Below, piece after piece: positions 5,303 through 32,499 of a DNA stretch of 64,000 bases. This stretch comes from Urechis unicinctus (Eukaryota; Annelida; Polychaeta; Xenopneusta; Urechidae): assembly GCA_034190875.2 (NCBI GenBank), contig CM067351.1, positions 4,822,426 through 4,886,425 of the forward strand. Reading direction: 5' to 3'. The notes under the pieces are model-generated. The model was not told the origin of the DNA and did no database searches. It saw only the letters and a program-made list of their open reading frames with translations. Both the position numbers and the translations under genes were made by a program. Within the stretch, counting starts at the first letter, position 1, and each line of letters begins with the position of its first letter.

Positions 5303-8300
5303 CTAGTTACTCATGGTCTTGCTTATTAACATAGAAAAAGCCCCTGGACAGTTACTTGATTATCGGTGCCATATATTGCTTTGGTCAAACATTGTGCAAA
5401 TGATGTACTATGCTCCAGGGATAAAGGAAATATATTGTTATTTGTTCACATAAAGGAAAACTGGATAATAGGCAAAGAATGACCGATTATATGTGTAGTG
5501 CCCGTTACACTCAGTTCATTCATCTCTGTATATGACGCAAAAACACGACGCATAACAAACATCTATACTCAAACGCTCATCACCTGTAATTAAGGAAATG
5601 TCGCGTTTGACAAATATGGAATTCTTCTATTCATCGTTGAACGACATAACCGACGTAATGAAGAATGATAATGGCTCGACCTAATTCTTCAAACGTCCTT
5701 GCTTGTTTTCAACATAATATTGATTTGGTCACCTCAGTGTTTCCTCCAGTAATATAATTCCGAATCGTCATATATACTGTTCTGTGGAAAGTATCTCTTT
5801 GACATATATCAACCGCTATTATAAAACGTGTGCATTGTTGATCTGTAAAGTATCTGCAACGATGTTGCCATACACATATCATCGATACTTCATTCTTCAT
5901 AATGGTTGTTCAGGAGGAAAGGAAAACTGCTACTCAAAAGATATCAACCTGGTAATAAATACGCTAATATGTCTTGCATGCCTAGTTATACTTAGATTTT
6001 TTCATCAATATATTTTTTAGATGTCTCTAACTCGTAAGTTCAGTTAGAAAGTTAAAAAAACAGTCTAACCTCAAAAATGACTATTGATAGATCAGTTTGT
6101 TGTAAATTGCGTTCGCGAAGTTTTCGCTGCCTCCAGCTGTTCATATTTTTGCACATGTATTTGACTCTCTTGTGTTATTGAGAGCTTTGCCTCTTATGGT
6201 CTTGCTGCACCAACAATCCAAAGGTTAACAGGTCACATGGTCACTACTTACCTTAACACAACCATGACATGAAACTATTTACCATAACCAAGTCATAATT
6301 TGTTATAATACAAACGACATTGGTCGAAAAGTTGCATAATATTTTGCTTCTTTATATCAGCCGAACAACGGCAGAATCAACAGTTCTAATTGTGCAACCC
6401 AATATATTAAAGCCATGCTAATTATTTGCCATCACCTCATTTCATGTTTGTATTAGGTAGTTATGCAACTCATAGACAGAAAATGGTGAAAATCGTGTTA
6501 TAGTGTTTTTTGCTGCCAGAAAGTAATCTTTGGAATGCTTCTGGAGCGATAACTAGAAATATCGTAAAGCGTAAAATATGCACATCGGCATACCACGAAT
6601 CAGATATGCCACTGGAACCAACAAAGTGATATACAGTGCGGTCTGTCATATAATTCATCGTTGGAAAATTGATATAAAATATTGATATATTGTTGATATA
6701 AACACCACCCAGGCCTTGACCACACAATCTTGCCTGACAGTTGATGTACACTTTTGGGGAAATAGAAAGTAGTTGAAAAGCTAACCAACAATTTTGCAGC
6801 TCTTGTTTTGTTGGCCGTGTAAGGAGCAAATCTCACTTCTTTTTCAACTTCTACACAGGAATAATTTTGCATTGATAATCTAGTTGACTCTTTCAGGGAT
6901 AGCTCATACGATGTGTGTTAATGGGTTTCCGCGCTTGGTGTTAAAATCCTAAGACCGAAATGGCTGATAAATATCTGCAACACTCAGGTTGAGAGAGGCA
7001 ATTCGTCCGCACCCAGATAACAGGTGTTCGACGAAATCAGTAAGGTTGCTTAATGTTTGTCATATTTTGAACGCAGGGTAAGTTGATTTGTTAAGAAACC
7101 TAGCTCAACTGTTAACATCTTAGTCATCTGTGTAATCTTAGTAATTAATTGCATATTGAGAGCAACACATATTGAGATAAATCATGTTCAGTTAAGCTGT
7201 TGCTATTGTAATCGGTTACGTGTAGTTTACTTCCAGAGCGCAAAGATAATCAAACACCAACACGGCCTGAAACAAACTTAAATGAATACATCAATCCCAT
7301 CAGGAATCAAATCCACGTCTAAATACACTAACATCATTATAACTTGTTTGCACTAAACTTGCATGTGGTATGGTTATAGAAGAGTTGTATGGTAACGTTT
7401 CGACCCCTTTTTAGCTAATGATACTAAAAAAAAGGTATGATAAGCAAAGGAAGGTTGTTGGCAATGCTAGCGGGAGATATTCGAGCTGAGATAATTTGGT
7501 AATTATCTGTGTATACTACTAGAGCTTGGTTGTCAAATGTTCACAGTACTACGATGTTAATAACTAATTGTGCTTGTATCTTTGAGATTATACTAAAAAT
7601 GGCCAGCTGCGCAAAAGCAGATAATCGACCCTGAAATGGGCTGATGATGGAGCGGGTTGGAGTATATAGAAACACATACAAAGTAGAGGCCTTCTATCCT
7701 GCCGTCTTAATGGCTAGATGGCAGCTGAATTAGATACCTTGCGTAGGCTTACTAAACAGCACATTGTATGAGCTTAACTGGCACTACCTACCAGCTTAGC
7801 ATACAGCAATTGCGCTAATTGAACAAATAATCAACCACATTCGATACCAGCGTATGTATGCGATTATCATAGACAATACTCACCACAGGGACAGAAATCA
7901 AACGTACAGTTCGATAATCGGTGTTTCGTCAAACACATCGTTGCAATTTCAAACTATCAGAGGGCAAGGCCGTAATCACAGTTCGTTAGTGGAACAGGAC
8001 GTAACTCATACACGCTCAGATATCATCCCTGCATTGCGTTCCTTTAATTAATTCAATTTAATTTTGTAAATTCACTGCTATATTTATTTTATATTCAGCA
8101 CAACAGTTTAGCCGGATTAATAGTGTCTATAGTCCTGAATATACGACTTAAGTAGGTGTAGTTCTAATTTTACGATCATTGCGGTTCGTGTAGACCCAAA
8201 TCTAGCTCTGCCTTAACACGCATGGGTGAATTTCGTACATTGGTCCGTATATACACCCTAATAACGGCATAGCTTCACCCAATGTTGACATTTAACATCC

Positions 8301-11157: not shown

Positions 11158-11751
11158 CTATAAGGGAGAGAAATAAAAACTTGTACAGAAACTATTGAAC
11201 AACTTGTTTCTCACATCCACATTGCAAGCCCCAAACCTTGACATCGACAAATGTGTTTGTGACACTAAATTAGGACACGCTCCATACATATTGTTTGTAT
11301 TACAGTCCTTACCGACATAGGTACCAAGATGCAAAGCATTTTCCCTTATAGGAATAGTGCAACCATTTAGCCATAAATCTACAGCGCACTGGTTATCGTT
11401 AAAAACTAATACATTGCTCTTCGTTGAGTTGAAAACGACACTATACTCAGCCGCAAATTGCTCACATGTTTCAATCATTATCATGGCGGCGGTCAATGAG
11501 GGTGCAATTAACGACAGATCATCAGCATAACCAAGTGCCCTAACAAATTCATGACCAATATCACATCCAACTTTAGTGTGTGACAGACGGGTGAGTAGTT
11601 CATCCATATAAACACCGAATTGAATCGGTGACAGAACTGCGCCCTGCTTCACGCCATTTGTAAAGCTAAAGCTGTCCGAAATTTCATTATCCCATTTAGG
11701 GTATCGAAATAATAGCCATTGCGATCGGATATTATAAGATGCCTTCCACAT
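11158..11751 (-). pseudogene. LINE reverse-transcriptase fragment
   Basis: This minus-strand frame of 197 codons is the central part of a non-LTR retrotransposon reverse transcriptase. The fingers/palm block TNGVKQGAVLSP is followed by the catalytic box GYADDL (YADD, with both Asp residues present) and by the downstream block FNSTKSNVLVF. The order and spacing fit jockey/CR1-like elements. The endonuclease, the N-terminal part of the reverse transcriptase and most of the C-terminal region are missing. The frame stops shortly after a typical NSFCTSF segment. I see no poly(A) tail or target-site duplication. It is a truncated relic that lies upstream of, and opposite to, the recombinase locus. 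Confidence 0.88.
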
Positions 11752-11950
11752 AGTGGCAGAACAGTACTGGATGATTTATTGTTAGCTTTTGCCCATGCTG
11801 AAAGATCGGCGTAATGGTAATGATACGGATCCAATACATCGAGGTTAACGTTCGCTAAGGTTCTGTGATCCAATGATTGTATAAACCCACGTCATTCATG
11901 TTTTGTTTCGACTGCGGTCGGAATAAGAGAGTTGTACCTGTTTCCTGCAG

Positions 11951-20520: not shown

Positions 20521-21726
20521 AAGGAACTAGAAGGTTCTCAGTCATACCTAACAAGTTTCCGTGGTGGTACACTGAAACGGTCTCAGGTAGTGAAGCATTC
20601 CCTCCAAGTTTCATATCTTATGAGGCACCTGACAGGTTTTATCGACGAGGTCTATCAGCCTATTGCGAATGTTATTGAGGCTATTGGATAATGATGAATG
20701 GCTGCCTAACACTGCCAGAACTTATCTAAAGTCGCTGAAACTATTTCTAAAGTATGCAGCTGTTAGACAACATGGCTATGACTGCTCAAAGGTTAAAATA
20801 TTCGAATCTAGTCTGGGCCCATGGCTCAAATCCCTAGTGAAAAAGGACCGACAGCGTCCAAGAAACACAAGCAATCCATTGATAAACCACGATGACATCA
20901 TGGCATACATGAGCAGTGCTAGAGCAAACATAGCATCACAGCTATGCAAAGCCAAAGCTGCAATCAATCAAGTAAATCATACTATGGTAAGGGAATATCT
21001 AATTACGAGTGTTGCTCTTGCCAACTGCCATCGTACAGGATGTATAATCACTATGAGGATAGACGAGTTCTCGAAGGCCCGTCTCAGAAATGGGCATTAT
21101 GTTGTACAAGTGGTTGACCATAAAGCATCAAATACATATGGACCTGCTGATGTGGTGATGGACCAGGTCTTGCATCAGGACATGGGCAGATATATATCAT
21201 CATACAGAGTGAAGACTGCTTCATCCTTTCTTTTCATCATCTGGAACGGGACACAGCTAGATGGTGGGGCAGTGGCAGGGCTGTAACCACAGAACTTGGA
21301 CATGCAAGTGTTGCGAAAAGGTAGGGACAAAGCCCAACACGGAATGTGCAGTTACTTGAAACATGTCTGTTCCATTTTAATGAAAAAACAATGGCGGTGA
21401 TCTTGTTGAAAAATTTAGAAATGTAAGTGTGCGTCTTAGATATATTGTAGTCACTTGTGCTATTGGATGTTATTTGAAATTTTTGTTTGCTGTTCAGAAT
21501 TACAATGACTAAACTCAGACATTGGCAGCGACATAAGTTTCTGGTCTGCTGCCAGAGAAAGATAGGAATGATCTTGCATCTATAACGATGCATAGTTCTT
21601 CGGTGCAACAGAGGACATTCAACAAGTGCCTAACGACATTGAAGAATGTACGCATCTCTGCCATTTTAAAGAAGATCCTCACCGAGTCAGCTGTTGACGA
21701 GCAGGACCTAAACGACGTTGAATTTG
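20521..21726 (+). pseudogene. Tyrosine recombinase domain (Crypton-like), decayed
   Basis: Two exons (20521-21320 and 21498-21726) encode a tyrosine recombinase/integrase-fold protein. An N-terminal helical region includes NTARTYLKSLKLFLKYA. The catalytic block carries box-I Arg in CHRTG (21032-21034), the hairpin Lys in DHKASNTYGPA (21122-21124), an Arg in TKLRHW (21517-21519) and a His in LASITMHS (21591-21593). The nucleophile position in VQQRTFNK is Phe (21618-21620) where Tyr is expected. Frame breaks are needed near 20670-20690, near 21285 (AVAG to AVTTELGHAS) and near 21540-21550, so the copy cannot make one protein as it stands. In the family the domain cuts and rejoins DNA through a 3'-phosphotyrosine. 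Cryptons, which lack TIRs, are the closest match I can name; a domesticated host gene gone to ruin is the alternative. Confidence 0.72.
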
Positions 21727-22884: not shown

Positions 22885-23782
22885 AAATAATTTTTTCTTT
22901 TACACACTTCAGAAAAACGTATTTGTTGTTTTTTTCTTTTTTAGTTGTTTGCCAATGTTTGGTCTGCCAGGGTATGGTGAAATGGTTGGCAGCATGTTGA
23001 AGTCACTTTGATAACTTTGTCTAAAGTTGCAGTACATCAACATCAACATCAACATGGTAAATTGTAGAATACCAACTCAGATGCAACTGTATAGTAAGTT
23101 GTATTCAGGTAATCTTAATTTGTAATGCGGTTGTATTCCTGAATGTTCCTTTAACTGACACAGCAGGGTAATAAAGTTTATCAATAGGAGTTCTGGTTTA
23201 CAGTTTTGTGCCAGTATCAGATGCAACTGCATAGTTAATTTTATTCAGGTAATCGTAATTTGTAAGGCTAAGGGTATTATTTCAAAATTTAGCCACCACT
23301 GAGATATGTTGTAATACATGTGATAGGTGGTATATTTGAGTTATTAGACTTGTAGTTGTGAGAGGAGAGATTTCATATATTAGAGCACATAAAGTTTCAC
23401 TGTGTGTAATTCTTATCACAATGCCTCACAAATAAAACTTATCATCACTGATTGTAGTTGTTTTATGTTTTCATAATTTATGGACCTCATGGCTGTTATG
23501 ATTTTTTTTAAAAATAACCAAGACACTGAGTAGGCAGCTGCGTACAAACAATAAGTACTTTATCTTCTGTACTCGCGATAAAATAATAGCAAATTGTTTT
23601 AATTGACTTAGATATAATTCTTGGACAAAATATTAGTCTGCATTCATTACAGAAATCAGAGCATGTACCATCAGAACCTATTCTGTCATGTTTGTGTGTG
23701 AGACGTATGCGTCAGTTAGACTATGCATGCCATAGCTCCACAATTCCATGTTAGGAAAAGTTAAAAGTTATGTTTATCTTAA
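22885..23782. other. Spacer between recombinase locus and transposon
   Basis: No gene. It holds a diverged direct repeat of about 50 bp (around 23080-23130 and 23217-23268, sharing CAGATGCAACTG and TTATTCAGGTAAT-like blocks) and ends with the left TTAA (23779-23782) of the Kolobok-like element. Confidence 0.6.
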
Positions 23783-23807
23783 AGAGACTGTTCAGCCCCA
23801 TATAAGG
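23783..23807 (+). repeat. Left terminal inverted repeat
   Basis: 25 bp immediately inside the left TTAA. It matches the right terminus at 23 of 25 positions (differences at positions 5 and 16 of the repeat). Confidence 0.95.
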
Positions 23808-23813
23808 AAAGTG

Positions 23814-23838
23814 GTTGCCTAGCAAGCTGCTTGGTAAC
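23814..23838. promoter_or_regulatory. Subterminal palindrome, X-box-like
   Basis: GTTGCCTAGCAAG followed by CTGCTTGGTAAC forms an imperfect palindrome 31 bp inside the left end. GTTGCC-N-RGCAA resembles the X-box bound by RFX factors, and subterminal palindromes can also bind transposase. It lies about 170 bp ahead of the transposase ATG. Function is inferred from resemblance only. Confidence 0.3.
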
Positions 23839-24003
23839 AGCACCTTGGAAACCAAAAATGTTACATTTTCAGACTTTCACTCGCTACGCGGCGCTGCGGT
23901 CTTTGAAAGTAGATCCTAACTTCCGCCGTCTGCTGTTTTGTTGTTGTTGTGAGAAATTACGCTTGCGAGCTCGGCGCCGCCATCATTTTTGTGCATTTTG
24001 ATC

Positions 24004-28524
<4,521 letters not shown>

Positions 28525-28530
28525 TCAAGT

Positions 28531-30043
28531 TCATTTGGCCCACAAGAAGCCAACATACTCGCCATCGCTAGAGGGCCACTTGTCCCGGATCGCCCACACC
28601 ATGCAGGATGGAACAACTCTTCTGTTGTTGCTGCCTAAGTGTCCATACCGATGTAAGCTATATTGGCGATAAGCTGCCAATCTGAAAGCTCGGTTAGTTT
28701 CCTCATACTGCCGGACTGTCTCCCTTGTGTAACAGAGGAGGGCTGTCTTCACTACATCTGCATTTAGGCATAGGAGCCGATAGTCATGGTTGCTAGTGTG
28801 GCACTTGTTTGTTCTCTGCTTGCAGCATATTCTTTCTGTTTGTGTTGGCATTGGCCGACATTTCTGACACACACACCAAGACATGTCATCTTGGAAATTG
28901 TGTGTCCAATCTGGATTTCTTGCCAGTGGGGCCAACCTGCTAGATACAAACACTTCAAATGATTTCTTCATTTCGTGGTTTTTTTCGATTTCCTCAGCAA
29001 GAAAATCCTTGACGATGTGTTCGGGAGTAGAATTCAAAGCCTATCACAGAGCAGAAAGTTGAAATCCATTTAGTAAAATCTATAAGGGAATGAAACATCA
29101 TGATTACATGTACCTCGGGACATTATATGGTGTAGTTCAGGAGGCTTATGTTATCTGTGATAGTAAACTTACACATGTTTATGAATAGTGTTTTGAGCAT
29201 TATCCCAACGGGTGTTTAAATATTTTGTTTATATCTGATTGATGTTCTTATGTTCTTGTATTTTAATGTACAATAAGATCCCTAACCTGCTGTACAGACG
29301 ACACTTCTTCGGGTTCCACAGATGGGGTATCTGATGTTCCCATAGGGGTATGTCCAGCTAAAATTATGCTGGTGTCCTGTAGGGGGGAAAAATTAAGTTC
29401 ATTTACTGACAGAAAATGTTCATTGCTACAGCATTTATATTGTTCTTGTTGTATTGCCAATACAATAAAATATTCAATTCACCATGAATAGTCTTGTATC
29501 AGTCAATTAGAGAAATGATGTCAATTGCTCAAGGGCATGTAAAAGATGTATTTGAGAGGTCATCAAACTGTTTTCGAAAATAATACTGTAGCAACATCTT
29601 ACCCGGTTTCTGCAGAATTTGACTTTGCAGAAGCATCTGGTGGAACAGTTTGTGCCATTCTTTTTACACGGGCACCGTCGAACGCATTGTCCTTTGCAGC
29701 GGCAATATGAACTATCAGATTCCAAAACAGTGTCAATGAGTGGTTCAGGAGACGGGGGTATCTCTTGTAGCACTTTACTTCCACTGGCCAGTCCCTCCAA
29801 TATCACCGCAGCGGGTAAATGGGTTGTGGAAGTGGAACCGCTTGGGGTCTCAGGTCTCTCGTAATCTGCAGCATCCTCCGCAGACTGAATGGGCAATGGT
29901 TCACTAAGTACCTCCCGAGTACAATATGGAACGCTCGACGTGTCGAACGCCGGATTTATCAATGTGGCAAACGTGTTGGATCCATTTTGATCGGCAGGGC
30001 TAACGGTGACCGGACCTCCCTTCAATGAAAACTTCATAAACAT
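28531..30043 (-). CDS. CXC plus P2X7-like domain accessory protein
   Basis: Three minus-strand exons in phase 0: 30043-29603 (147 codons), 29376-29287 (30 codons) and 29040-28531 (169 codons plus stop), 346 residues in all. The N-terminal region is Ser/Pro-rich. Residues about 114-147 form a CXC-like motif (CRCKGQC...CPCKK...CSTRCFCK...CRN), the kind that binds DNA in tesmin and MSL2-type proteins. Residues about 190-346 resemble the cytosolic Cys-rich C-terminal domain of P2X7 receptors: WCVCQKC at about 232, more Cys/His pairs, FRLAAYRQYSLHRYGHLG, then VPSCMVWAIRDKWPSSDGEY. No P2X channel segments are present. I chose the first in-frame ATG after an upstream stop. It is tail to tail with the transposase, inside the same TIRs. 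Its role is unknown; aid in target choice or regulation is inference. Confidence 0.85.
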
Positions 30044-30553
30044 CGCAGCTGAGTTGTGGTTGCGGACGGACAACAGTGAGGTTTCAGTTTCAATCTCCAG
30101 CGAGCGTCGGCGGGAAATTTTTCGGTGTTAGGTGATGACGAATACTGTGTGCTTAATTCCATTGTATGATAAAAGGTACCATATGGTGGGACAAAAGTTA
30201 CTATTTGTCGTGTTGGTGTTTGCCCACAACCTTGATTTGAAGAAAACTACATTTTGAAACTTGAGCGGAAATATACACATCCGTAGCGAGGTAGTTATAA
30301 GGCGCGCGTAGTGATTTACAGCCGACAAACGAGCGGCTGATGGTTTTAGGGAGGTATCGTTATCGATGGACTGACACAGCTAAATGAAACAGCCTTCTAC
30401 TGTACATCTTTTGGATTTCCAGTGAAACAAATATGTTTAAAAATTACCAGCATAATTTTGGATGAAGTAAAATTTGACGCACCAAATAAACGACGGCATT
30501 ATTTCTTAACCGCATCGAGCGTAGTAATGTATTTACCAAATGATCCCTGATTG

Positions 30554-30578
30554 CCTTATATGAGGCTGAACAGCCTCT
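30554..30578 (-). repeat. Right terminal inverted repeat
   Basis: 25 bp immediately inside the right TTAA, inverted relative to 23783-23807. Homology stops sharply after the shared AAGG, so the repeat is short. Confidence 0.95.
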
Positions 30579-32499
30579 TTAAGACATAATATACTCCCTC
30601 TGATTATAATGCAATTATAAATATTTGTAACACTGCACATATGATGTACACAGCTTTGAAACATTCTCTACATAGTATATAAATGTGACGCAATGTATCA
30701 CACATTTTAAACACCACTTTTACGCATATCATTTACTGGCTACATTGGTAATAGATTTAAATGTCAAAGAATTTCATCTTTCTTACTATTACATCTTTTG
30801 ACTGGAGAAACTAAAAGTTATGATTCAGGAGGCAGGAATGACAACTTTGGTCTGCTAACTAAGAATTATTTTAGCAAGAATAACTGACGCGGGTAGCCCG
30901 CTAACCGACCCAACGTTCTCTTGTTTTGTTGAAACGTTAGAAACCACAGAAATGTCACGTAGCGGCGTATCGTAAGACAATGACCCGGGGAGTGGCTAAA
31001 GGACCACCTTTATAGCAAAATGACTACATTTGCAGCAAAAGGGCTCATCGTGGTCCTTGAGCTACATTTGCATGTAATATTAGGACCTCAAATGTAACAA
31101 AAGGACCATTTATTTTTTATCTGTCTATCTATCGTTCTTGATTAACATCGAAAAAGCTGTGAAGCTGTTATGTGTGTCGACTCAGACAACGAAAATCCGC
31201 ACGTGTGTGATTCGGCAAATGCTGATTATATTGTTGTTTTTAAATTTATTAAAAGGTATGTGTCATTCTAGTACTTGTTGCTTTATTGCGCATTCAAAAC
31301 GCTAGCTCATTGCAGCAAAATGATTAGTCTGCTGCTTCTGGTTTATATGAAATCGCTAACCCTAGTGCGTAACCTGTTTATTTCCTGGAGAGCCACGTAG
31401 GGATTTGAACGAGGTTATTGCTTATGCGAGATGATGAGGCGACGACACTGAGTGAATCCCTGAATTACTGACGTTTATAGTGCTAGAATAAATTCGTTAT
31501 CGGAATTTTAAAATATACTCCATGTCCAAAATTGTCCAATAGGGTTAAGAAATACGCAGAAATGAATTAATATTTTAAATGTGCATGTTTAAACCGCTTT
31601 ATTACTTGACATGTATCAAATAGGACCTTGACTCTTTCCCATTAATATTTTAAATGCATGTTTAAACCGCCGCCTTATTACTTGACATGACACTCTTTCC
31701 CAGATCTTTTTCATGGAGTAATGTTATAACAAAAAATGAAAAACTTTCAAAAGTTGATAGGCCTACTTTCAATGTGCAACATGGAGTCTCAGGCTCTGAC
31801 GGGACAAACGGATGCAATCTCTAACTGTGTCAGGCGTAGACAGCCATTTTCTTAAATTGAAAAAACCTGTCAACGACAGTTATGAGCATGCTACACACTA
31901 TGGATGATCTTTTTATCCTTCATTACGACTTAATAAGCCCTGAGGAAAGTATCAATCTACGTATTTTGAAATGGGTTTTATAACCGCTTATTTACAATTT
32001 TGAGTGAATAATTGTTGAAGAACGAGCCATTCCATGAAGCCGTCGACCATGGATATCATTCATGCCAACGGTCGACCCAATATTAAGGGGGAGTGCAGAG
32101 CAAAGTGACCGGTGCCCCTATAGAGCAATGCATCGTTCCTAATCACCCATGGTCGATGAAATCGCTACAACGACAATACGCTAAGGAAATATTCTGGTTG
32201 ATAATCCGGTCCATATTTGGGTGATCCATCAAATCCAGTTGATACTATGAAATCGAGGGCATTAACAATGGATATACATCACCAAAGGCCATTCAATCCG
32301 GATATGGGAATATGACCTAACACAGCTTCAAAAACATTCTGAGTGTAACCATTTATATGATGAAGGGGTTTATTATGCTGTAGGGAATTTATTCATGGCA
32401 ATTGGTCAGCCATTGTTATCATATGCGTATGTAAACGCCACGTGTTATGGACGAATATCTAGCGATTGAAGTCTTGCTTTGAGGCAACACCCAACGACG
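30579..32499. other. Gene-poor flank right of the transposon
   Basis: No coding feature. It contains an inverted pair AAGGACCAC and GTGGTCCTT (about 31001-31059) and the tandem repeat at 31566-31701. The rest is unremarkable AT-rich DNA. Confidence 0.55.
31566..31701. repeat. Two-unit tandem repeat, units of about 75 and 61 bp
   Basis: Both units start ATTAATATTTTAAATG, share ATGTTTAAACCGC and TTATTACTTGACATG, and end CTCTTTCCC. The second lacks a block of about 14 bp (roughly TATCAAATAGGACC). Confidence 0.85.

Follow-up and report, generated by a model that had tools for sequence, protein, structure and literature searches.

A complete transposon with two opposed genes

The 64,000-nucleotide stretch of DNA analysed here (the window; Urechis unicinctus contig CM067351.1, positions 4,822,426 to 4,886,425 of the forward strand) harbors a complete Kolobok-type DNA transposon, in which a transposase gene and the three-exon gene KolX are encoded on opposite strands. 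The features of the element are as follows.

23779..23782, TTAA target site duplication, left, read directly
23783..30578, Kolobok-type DNA transposon, complete, 6,796 bp, bounded by terminal inverted repeats (TIRs) and flanked by TTAA
23783..23812, plus strand, left TIR, starting with AGAG
25943..28524, plus strand, transposase gene, 3' exons in open frames from 25943, stop codon at 28522-28524
28531..29040, minus strand, KolX exon 3, which encodes the ballast (P2RX7_C) domain and includes the stop codon
29287..29376, minus strand, KolX exon 2
29603..30043, minus strand, KolX exon 1, acidic N-terminal stretch followed by a CXC-like cluster
29612..29704, minus strand, CXC-like nine-cysteine cluster, KolX residues 114-144
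30549..30578, minus strand, right TIR, found by a TIR search of the window
30579..30582, TTAA target site duplication, right, read directly

The TIRs, each of which adjoins TTAA, have 25 of 30 bases in common and were identified with a TTAA-anchored search, which was used instead of a generic inverted-repeat search of the window (the 25 pairs listed, of 157, in the latter were all AT repeats). When up to three mismatches were allowed, the 25-base left TIR was found in the window at the two element ends only (0 and 2 mismatches), the number expected by chance being 0 (100 shuffles). Two further complete copies, L032 (6,765 bp) and L033 (6,774 bp), are likewise TTAA-bounded, lie within different flanks and are 98.45% and 98.63% identical to the window element, respectively; pairwise identity among the three ranges from 98.25 to 98.63% over 6,689 to 6,739 ungapped columns. 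The element is mobile; an earlier note on this DNA had suggested that the P2X7-type domain is carried and spread by a DNA transposon. All three complete copies carry TTAA at both ends, and the termini read AG...CT, the 5'-RR and YY-3' form which defines Kolobok and distinguishes it from piggyBac (PMC9587614).

A pattern made of TTAA and the 32 bases which open the left end has 416 exact matches in the 1.19-Gb genome, and the reversed pattern does not occur in it. With a 90-base left-end query, the first look gave 1,027 candidates; the 40 scored among them are all 100% identical, and such identical left ends suggest that the element was active very recently. The last transposase exon retrieved 40 matches (58 candidates, every one scored), among which eight span the query from position 1 to 128-131 at an identity of at least 83%, while a ninth near-full-length match is 53% identical. 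Given 416 ends against so few transposase copies, the majority of these ends are probably those of shortened, non-autonomous copies, which probably form a large and very young family.

The transposase gene may possess additional upstream exons, perhaps at 24000-25570. Three transposase exon pieces recur at 96.5 to 98.5% identity in L033 and at 91.6 to 100% in L032, and the joined exons contain, in this order, the motifs AGDGR, VTDAH, LDVWH and LENFN, whose assignment as DDE/DxxH-like was made by eye. Kolobok transposases are DDE enzymes in which C/DxxH lies between the second D and the E. The joined protein produced no transposase match in Pfam, where its sole match was a sub-threshold one to Stereocilin (E 9.6e-4); the first part of the protein yielded a sub-threshold Mutator match (E 3.7e-4, 20 bits versus a cut-off of 26.5) which ranked below an equal match to Stereocilin (E 2.4e-4).

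Two other features of the window were noted outside the element. A reverse transcriptase fragment is located at 11158-11775 on the minus strand (RVT_1, E 4.5e-13), and an open frame at 20633-21286 on the plus strand has a sub-threshold match to a phage integrase N-terminal domain (E 0.0014); the latter is, we presume, possibly a Crypton-type tyrosine recombinase.

Structure of the KolX gene and constraint on its exons

KolX extends on the minus strand from an ATG at 30043 to a stop codon at 28533-28531, and its three exons, separated by two introns which both start with GT and end with AG, specify 346 residues. The gene had been described as an intact three-exon gene inside TIRs, a description which holds to the exact coordinates. 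Just six bases separate its end (28531) from that of the transposase frame on the plus strand (28524), and the two genes are, therefore, arranged tail to tail. The net charge of the protein is -10 across residues 1-112 as against +11 across residues 113-147.

The exon junctions of KolX are identical in all five copies compared, including that of the window. KolX is open throughout in two of these, namely, the window copy and L033, and is broken by an exon 1 frameshift in L032, by exon 1 stops in L035 and by an exon 3 stop in L037. Estimates of dN/dS, which for the KolX exons rest on small change counts, were 0.18 to 0.36 for exon 3 where L037, the most diverged of the five copies, was compared with the other four, and 0.31 to 0.73 for exon 1 (six pairs of four copies, L032 being omitted because of its shifted frame); exon 1 is thus under weaker constraint than exon 3. 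Values above 1 were obtained for exon 3 in two pairs which involve L035 (1.14 with the window copy and 1.24 with L033), and the window-L033 pair has 0 synonymous versus 3 nonsynonymous changes in this exon.

The C-terminal half of KolX and the P2X7 ballast domain

Residues 170-342 of KolX match the Pfam domain P2RX7_C (PF20478) with 99.6 bits versus a cut-off of 23.5 (E 2.8e-28), and a phmmer search of PDB with KolX retrieved four P2X7 sequences (best E 1.8e-15, residues 228-344) and one other match (E 0.15). A ballast profile of 15 sequences, comprising that of the window and 14 from the same genome, matched only P2X7 in PDB at E of 10 or less (best E 1.6e-19). The C-terminal half of KolX is, by sequence, homologous to the cytoplasmic ballast domain of P2X7, and both the proposed likeness to that cytosolic domain and the profile search of the spliced 346-residue product that had been put forward as its check thus came out strongly positive in Pfam and PDB alike. 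The P2X channel domain (PF00864) is absent from KolX, P2RX7_C being its sole Pfam match at E of 1 or less, just as the earlier note had held that no channel part is present.

Seven cysteines are common to KolX and P2X7 (C233/C477, C235/C479, C238/C482, C249/C498, C250/C499, C257/C506 and C323/C572, respectively), and C552 and C573 of P2X7 are without a counterpart in KolX. The seven P2X7 residues of these pairs are presumably those which surround zinc. In the P2X7 ballast domain, two zincs are surrounded by seven cysteines (PMC9587614). Among the five residues of the guanine nucleotide site, the equivalents of R546 and R578 are kept in KolX and those of H547, R574 and K583 are replaced, this being the pattern described for sequences beyond deuterostomes by Rump et al. 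(PMC7016195).

A genome search with P2RX7_C yielded 2,591 candidates, of which 150 were scored; we take these 150 matches to represent at least two KolX families together with many fragments. P2X channel exons gave 15 matches (25 candidates, all scored), which are confined to contig C15 at approximately 15.86, 48.03 and 66.66 Mb. Since the scored ballast match nearest to a P2X exon lies approximately 4.3 Mb from it, no P2X7-like fusion was seen among the 150. A P2X7-like receptor in the U. unicinctus genome is accordingly rejected for the 150 scored of 2,591 ballast candidates, weaker candidates having been outside the scoring.

A separate group of 22 P2RX7_C matches covers only the last approximately 49 profile positions, within a 59-residue open frame and with many near-equal scores (for example, C5:27723283-27723429, C13:44050947-44051093 and C9:20979764-20979910). 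These partial matches perhaps belong to a repeat of their own, or to an element of the piggyBac type in which KolX is incomplete.

The N-terminal nine-cysteine cluster

The cluster which ends the N-terminal half of KolX comprises nine cysteines in 31 residues, with spacings of 1, 3, 3, 1, 6, 3, 1 and 4 residues. The CXC2 domain of LIN54, whose spacings are 1, 4, 4, 1, 6, 3, 1 and 2, has the same order of nine cysteines and the same core, C-x-C-x6-C-x3-C-x-C; overall, four of the eight cysteine gaps of KolX differ from those of LIN54 CXC1 and three of the eight from those of CXC2. A pattern wide enough to accommodate the spacings of both KolX and LIN54, chosen post hoc with the cluster already seen, occurred in 4 of 2,000,000 shuffles of the 31 residues and never when exon 1 was shuffled 300,000 times. 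The alignment score between the cluster and LIN54 is only approximately 2 standard deviations above that of same-letter shuffles, 574 and 647 of 20,000 of which reach the score.

Profile searches, run with filters which drop weak matches, produced no match for the CXC-like part in Pfam, NCBIfam or PDB (single sequence and, for PDB, also a five-sequence profile), nor did the PF03638 and MSL2 CXC profiles match KolX at E of 10 or less. In the genome, a PF03638 search (65 candidates, all scored) recovered two neighbouring exons only, both of which match LIN54 in PDB. The cluster is, on the basis of its cysteine order, CXC-like and not a proven member of the CXC family; of the earlier description as a CXC-like cluster, the nine cysteines in LIN54 order, rare in shuffles, stand, but a profile match does not accompany them.

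All nine cysteines are intact in four of five aligned copies, the first having been lost in L037, and L035, which contains stops and lies outside this alignment, likewise shows nine. In LIN54, the nine cysteines of a CXC domain bind three zincs, the CXC domains of LIN54 and MSL2 contact the DNA minor groove, and two LIN54 tyrosines enter that groove (PMC4974476). Judging from their neighbours Leu535 and Asn609, we locate these tyrosines, in either domain, immediately ahead of the second C-x-C, and at this place KolX has an arginine which is invariant in five of five aligned copies. As replacement of either LIN54 tyrosine with arginine abolished DNA binding (PMC4974476), the binding mode of KolX cannot be that of LIN54. 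MSL2, which possesses one CXC domain, inserts an arginine (PMC4974476).

Three CXC-like stretches, 56 to 57% identical to that of KolX, occur in tandem approximately 1.1 kb apart at C13:76344645-76347025, with neither ballast nor transposase nearby.

Linkage in other copies and a sister KolX family

Twenty loci were fetched around the 150 scored ballast matches. The ballast exon of the window family (best piece at least 82% identical) is accompanied by opposite-strand transposase exons in seven of them (L032, L033, L035, L037, L039, L043 and L044), and in six of these seven the family TIR adjoins TTAA at one end or at both within the stretch examined, in which L039 has none. The linkage of the gene to a transposase and TIRs, proposed as something to be sought elsewhere, thus recurs at other places in the U. 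unicinctus genome.

The CXC stretch, used as a genome query, gave 18 matches, with same-strand ballast in 9 and opposite-strand transposase in 11, in either case within 10 kb. Of the 18, three are the tandem stretches at C13:76.34 Mb, which have neither partner, four stand by themselves, and two are accompanied by a transposase but by no ballast match. This count was made with 46 of the 150 ballast places entered, the others being checked by eye for the partnerless CXC places, and with 31 of the 40 transposase matches entered, the omitted nine being second pieces of copies already included. Linked KolX copies are spread over several contigs.

The remaining 13 loci contain distant ballast exons, whose best piece is 29 to 53% identical, and in five of them (L031, L034, L042, L047 and L050) a piece of a transposase also falls within the stretch. 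A sister KolX family, comprising L031 and its relatives, has a ballast domain approximately 30 to 38% identical to that of the window KolX and seems to be devoid of the CXC-like cluster, as judged from a pattern search of the 20 loci in unbroken single-exon frames, which found none in this family. An Arg/Gly-rich short stretch is located upstream of the sister-family ballast exon in 8 of 11 loci, with a stop inside it in 4 of the 8, and we take this stretch, with putative splicing, as the N-terminus of the sister-family protein. The family includes L031:2200-3390, L034 and L042, in which the transposase pieces are on the opposite strand and approximately 28 to 38% identical. A TTAA-anchored TIR search of the 13 divergent loci returned inverted pairs in L031 (24/24, inside a palindrome), L049 (21/24), L042 (18/24) and L038 (17/24). 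The apparent large palindrome of L031 (4500-9650) presents one transposase piece, along with further frames, in both orientations, and encloses a perfect TTAA-anchored inverted repeat at 6104-8048.

Beyond this genome, 23 pattern matches in viral contigs gave 0 confirmed relatives, and phage records produced no match.

Proposed role of KolX

In several copies, TIRs adjoining TTAA enclose both KolX and a transposase, the two genes meeting tail to tail, and KolX carries a homolog of the P2X7 ballast domain. It is proposed, with a probability of roughly 60%, that KolX is the accessory gene of a Kolobok which was active recently, that its product is a DNA-contacting transposition helper, and that the tail of P2X7 is a tamed form of its scaffold. 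Because one element encodes both proteins and the two genes occur side by side, participation of both in transposition is the most economical interpretation. We infer that KolX would be a small nuclear or chromatin-associated protein which aids transposition. The N-terminal cluster, which is basic and probably binds zinc, would provide the DNA contact, either at the TIRs or at the TTAA target, and another basic sequence may replace this cluster in the sister family; the cysteine-clustered ballast domain would be a constant scaffold with the transposase, a further KolX copy or some host factor as its binding partner, and the P2X7 tail would be a tamed copy of this scaffold. DNA contact is proposed for the former because it is basic and has a cysteine order which binds DNA elsewhere, and protein contact for the latter because it is the better conserved. 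For the nucleic-acid role which the earlier note had envisaged, only the cysteine pattern and the basic charge speak; taken as a whole, the interpretation given in that note is partly supported.

A wider version, which we advance tentatively and regard as doubtful, would see in KolX proteins modular DNA-binding partners of transposition, in which an exchangeable N-terminal DNA module (a CXC-like one in the window family, perhaps an Arg/Gly-rich one in its sister, and a THAP-like one in a reported Ixodes protein) is joined to a constant ballast domain. In its boldest form, which this assessment includes, two KolX copies would read TTAA through their single CXC clusters, by analogy with the two CXC domains of LIN54 on TTYRAA. 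If the modular version is true, the ancestor of the P2X7 ballast domain would be that part of a transposition complex which makes contact with protein. Medical interest in the P2X7 receptor is wide, and the function of the binding sites in its ballast domain is called unknown in an abstract (eLife, PMC9859053); a recently mobile element with an apparent DNA-contact cluster offers a concrete system for the original job of this domain.

Among the alternatives, it is unlikely that KolX is a transposon regulator or a host-interaction protein (for example, a repressor or an element-hiding factor) whose CXC-like cluster targets chromatin. CXC domains are carried by LIN54, of a transcription complex, and by MSL2, of dosage compensation (PMC4974476), and we found no tested activity of KolX in Kojima and Bao or in Rump et al. 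(PMC9587614, PMC7016195); the opposite-strand pairing with transposase in the linked CXC copies suits a joint role, although it is compatible with regulation too. Quite improbable, in our estimation, is a lineage-specific, metallothionein-like or structural cluster without DNA contact, the ballast domain alone mattering through guanine nucleotide binding. No profile supports CXC membership, the gaps noted above depart from those of both LIN54 domains, and no such cluster was seen in the sister family; however, the shared cysteine order and CXC2 core spacing, encountered in 4 of 2,000,000 shuffles, argue against this reading, and the retention of only two of the five GDP-contact residues weakens a nucleotide role. 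That the element is a piggyBac, which likewise uses TTAA at both ends and for which cases are reported (PMC9587614), is very improbable, as the AG...CT termini have the Kolobok form and the window KolX keeps all seven ballast cysteines, most of which are lacking in the reported piggyBac proteins (PMC9587614). A host gene captured or surrounded by chance at one place, as its three exons with proper splice signals might suggest, is scarcely credible and is ruled out by the presence of the gene in three complete copies of the element, all bounded by TTAA yet differing in their flanks, and by linked copies on several contigs.

Comparison with known systems

Kojima and Bao (2022, PMC9587614) showed the ballast fold in KolX, which they describe as an accessory protein in the Kol0 lineage of Kolobok; they derived P2X7 from the joining of a P2X4-like gene to KolX, and took Nanor to be, in all likelihood, a tamed KolX. 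Capture of the ballast domain had been argued earlier by Rump et al. (2020, PMC7016195). The central idea of the earlier note is, therefore, confirmed but not new; that vertebrate P2X7 may have gained its tail from such a source has already been proposed in print. What is added here is the CXC-like module, the presence of two contrasting KolX families in one genome and the recently active element. The term CXC is absent from the main text of PMC9587614 and from that of PMC7016195, and in these two main texts we did not find the CXC-ballast pairing, which thus looks unreported.

As in the published Kol0 elements, a ballast-domain second protein is present beside the transposase in the window element; the published proteins likewise accompany a DDE transposase, target TTAA, resemble human P2X7 residues 476-595 and have seven cysteines (PMC9587614). 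A possible difference lies in the nine-cysteine cluster described here, the window KolX having been compared with the published proteins by their description. The ZCD or NANOR-like proteins (PTHR36981; PMC7016195) are similarly short, occur in many animals and combine a C-terminal ballast domain with a variable N-terminus, two from Ixodes possessing an extra N-terminal domain, TolA or "TAHP", which is read as THAP; they differ in that we did not find them placed in transposons by Rump et al. (PMC7016195), a setting which, according to PMC9587614, had not been pointed out earlier.

With the Tesmin/LIN54/MSL2 CXC domains (PF03638), KolX shares the nine-cysteine order of LIN54 and the core spacing of its CXC2, but it lacks the tandem copy, the tyrosine and a CXC profile match, and its other spacings differ. 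MSL2 resembles KolX in its single CXC copy, and inserts an arginine, a residue which KolX has at the LIN54 tyrosine place. P2X7 itself (PF20478) differs in its channel domain, which KolX does not have, and in H547, R574 and K583, which KolX does not keep, and is united with KolX by ballast homology over residues 170-342, by the seven cysteines and by the equivalents of R546 and R578.
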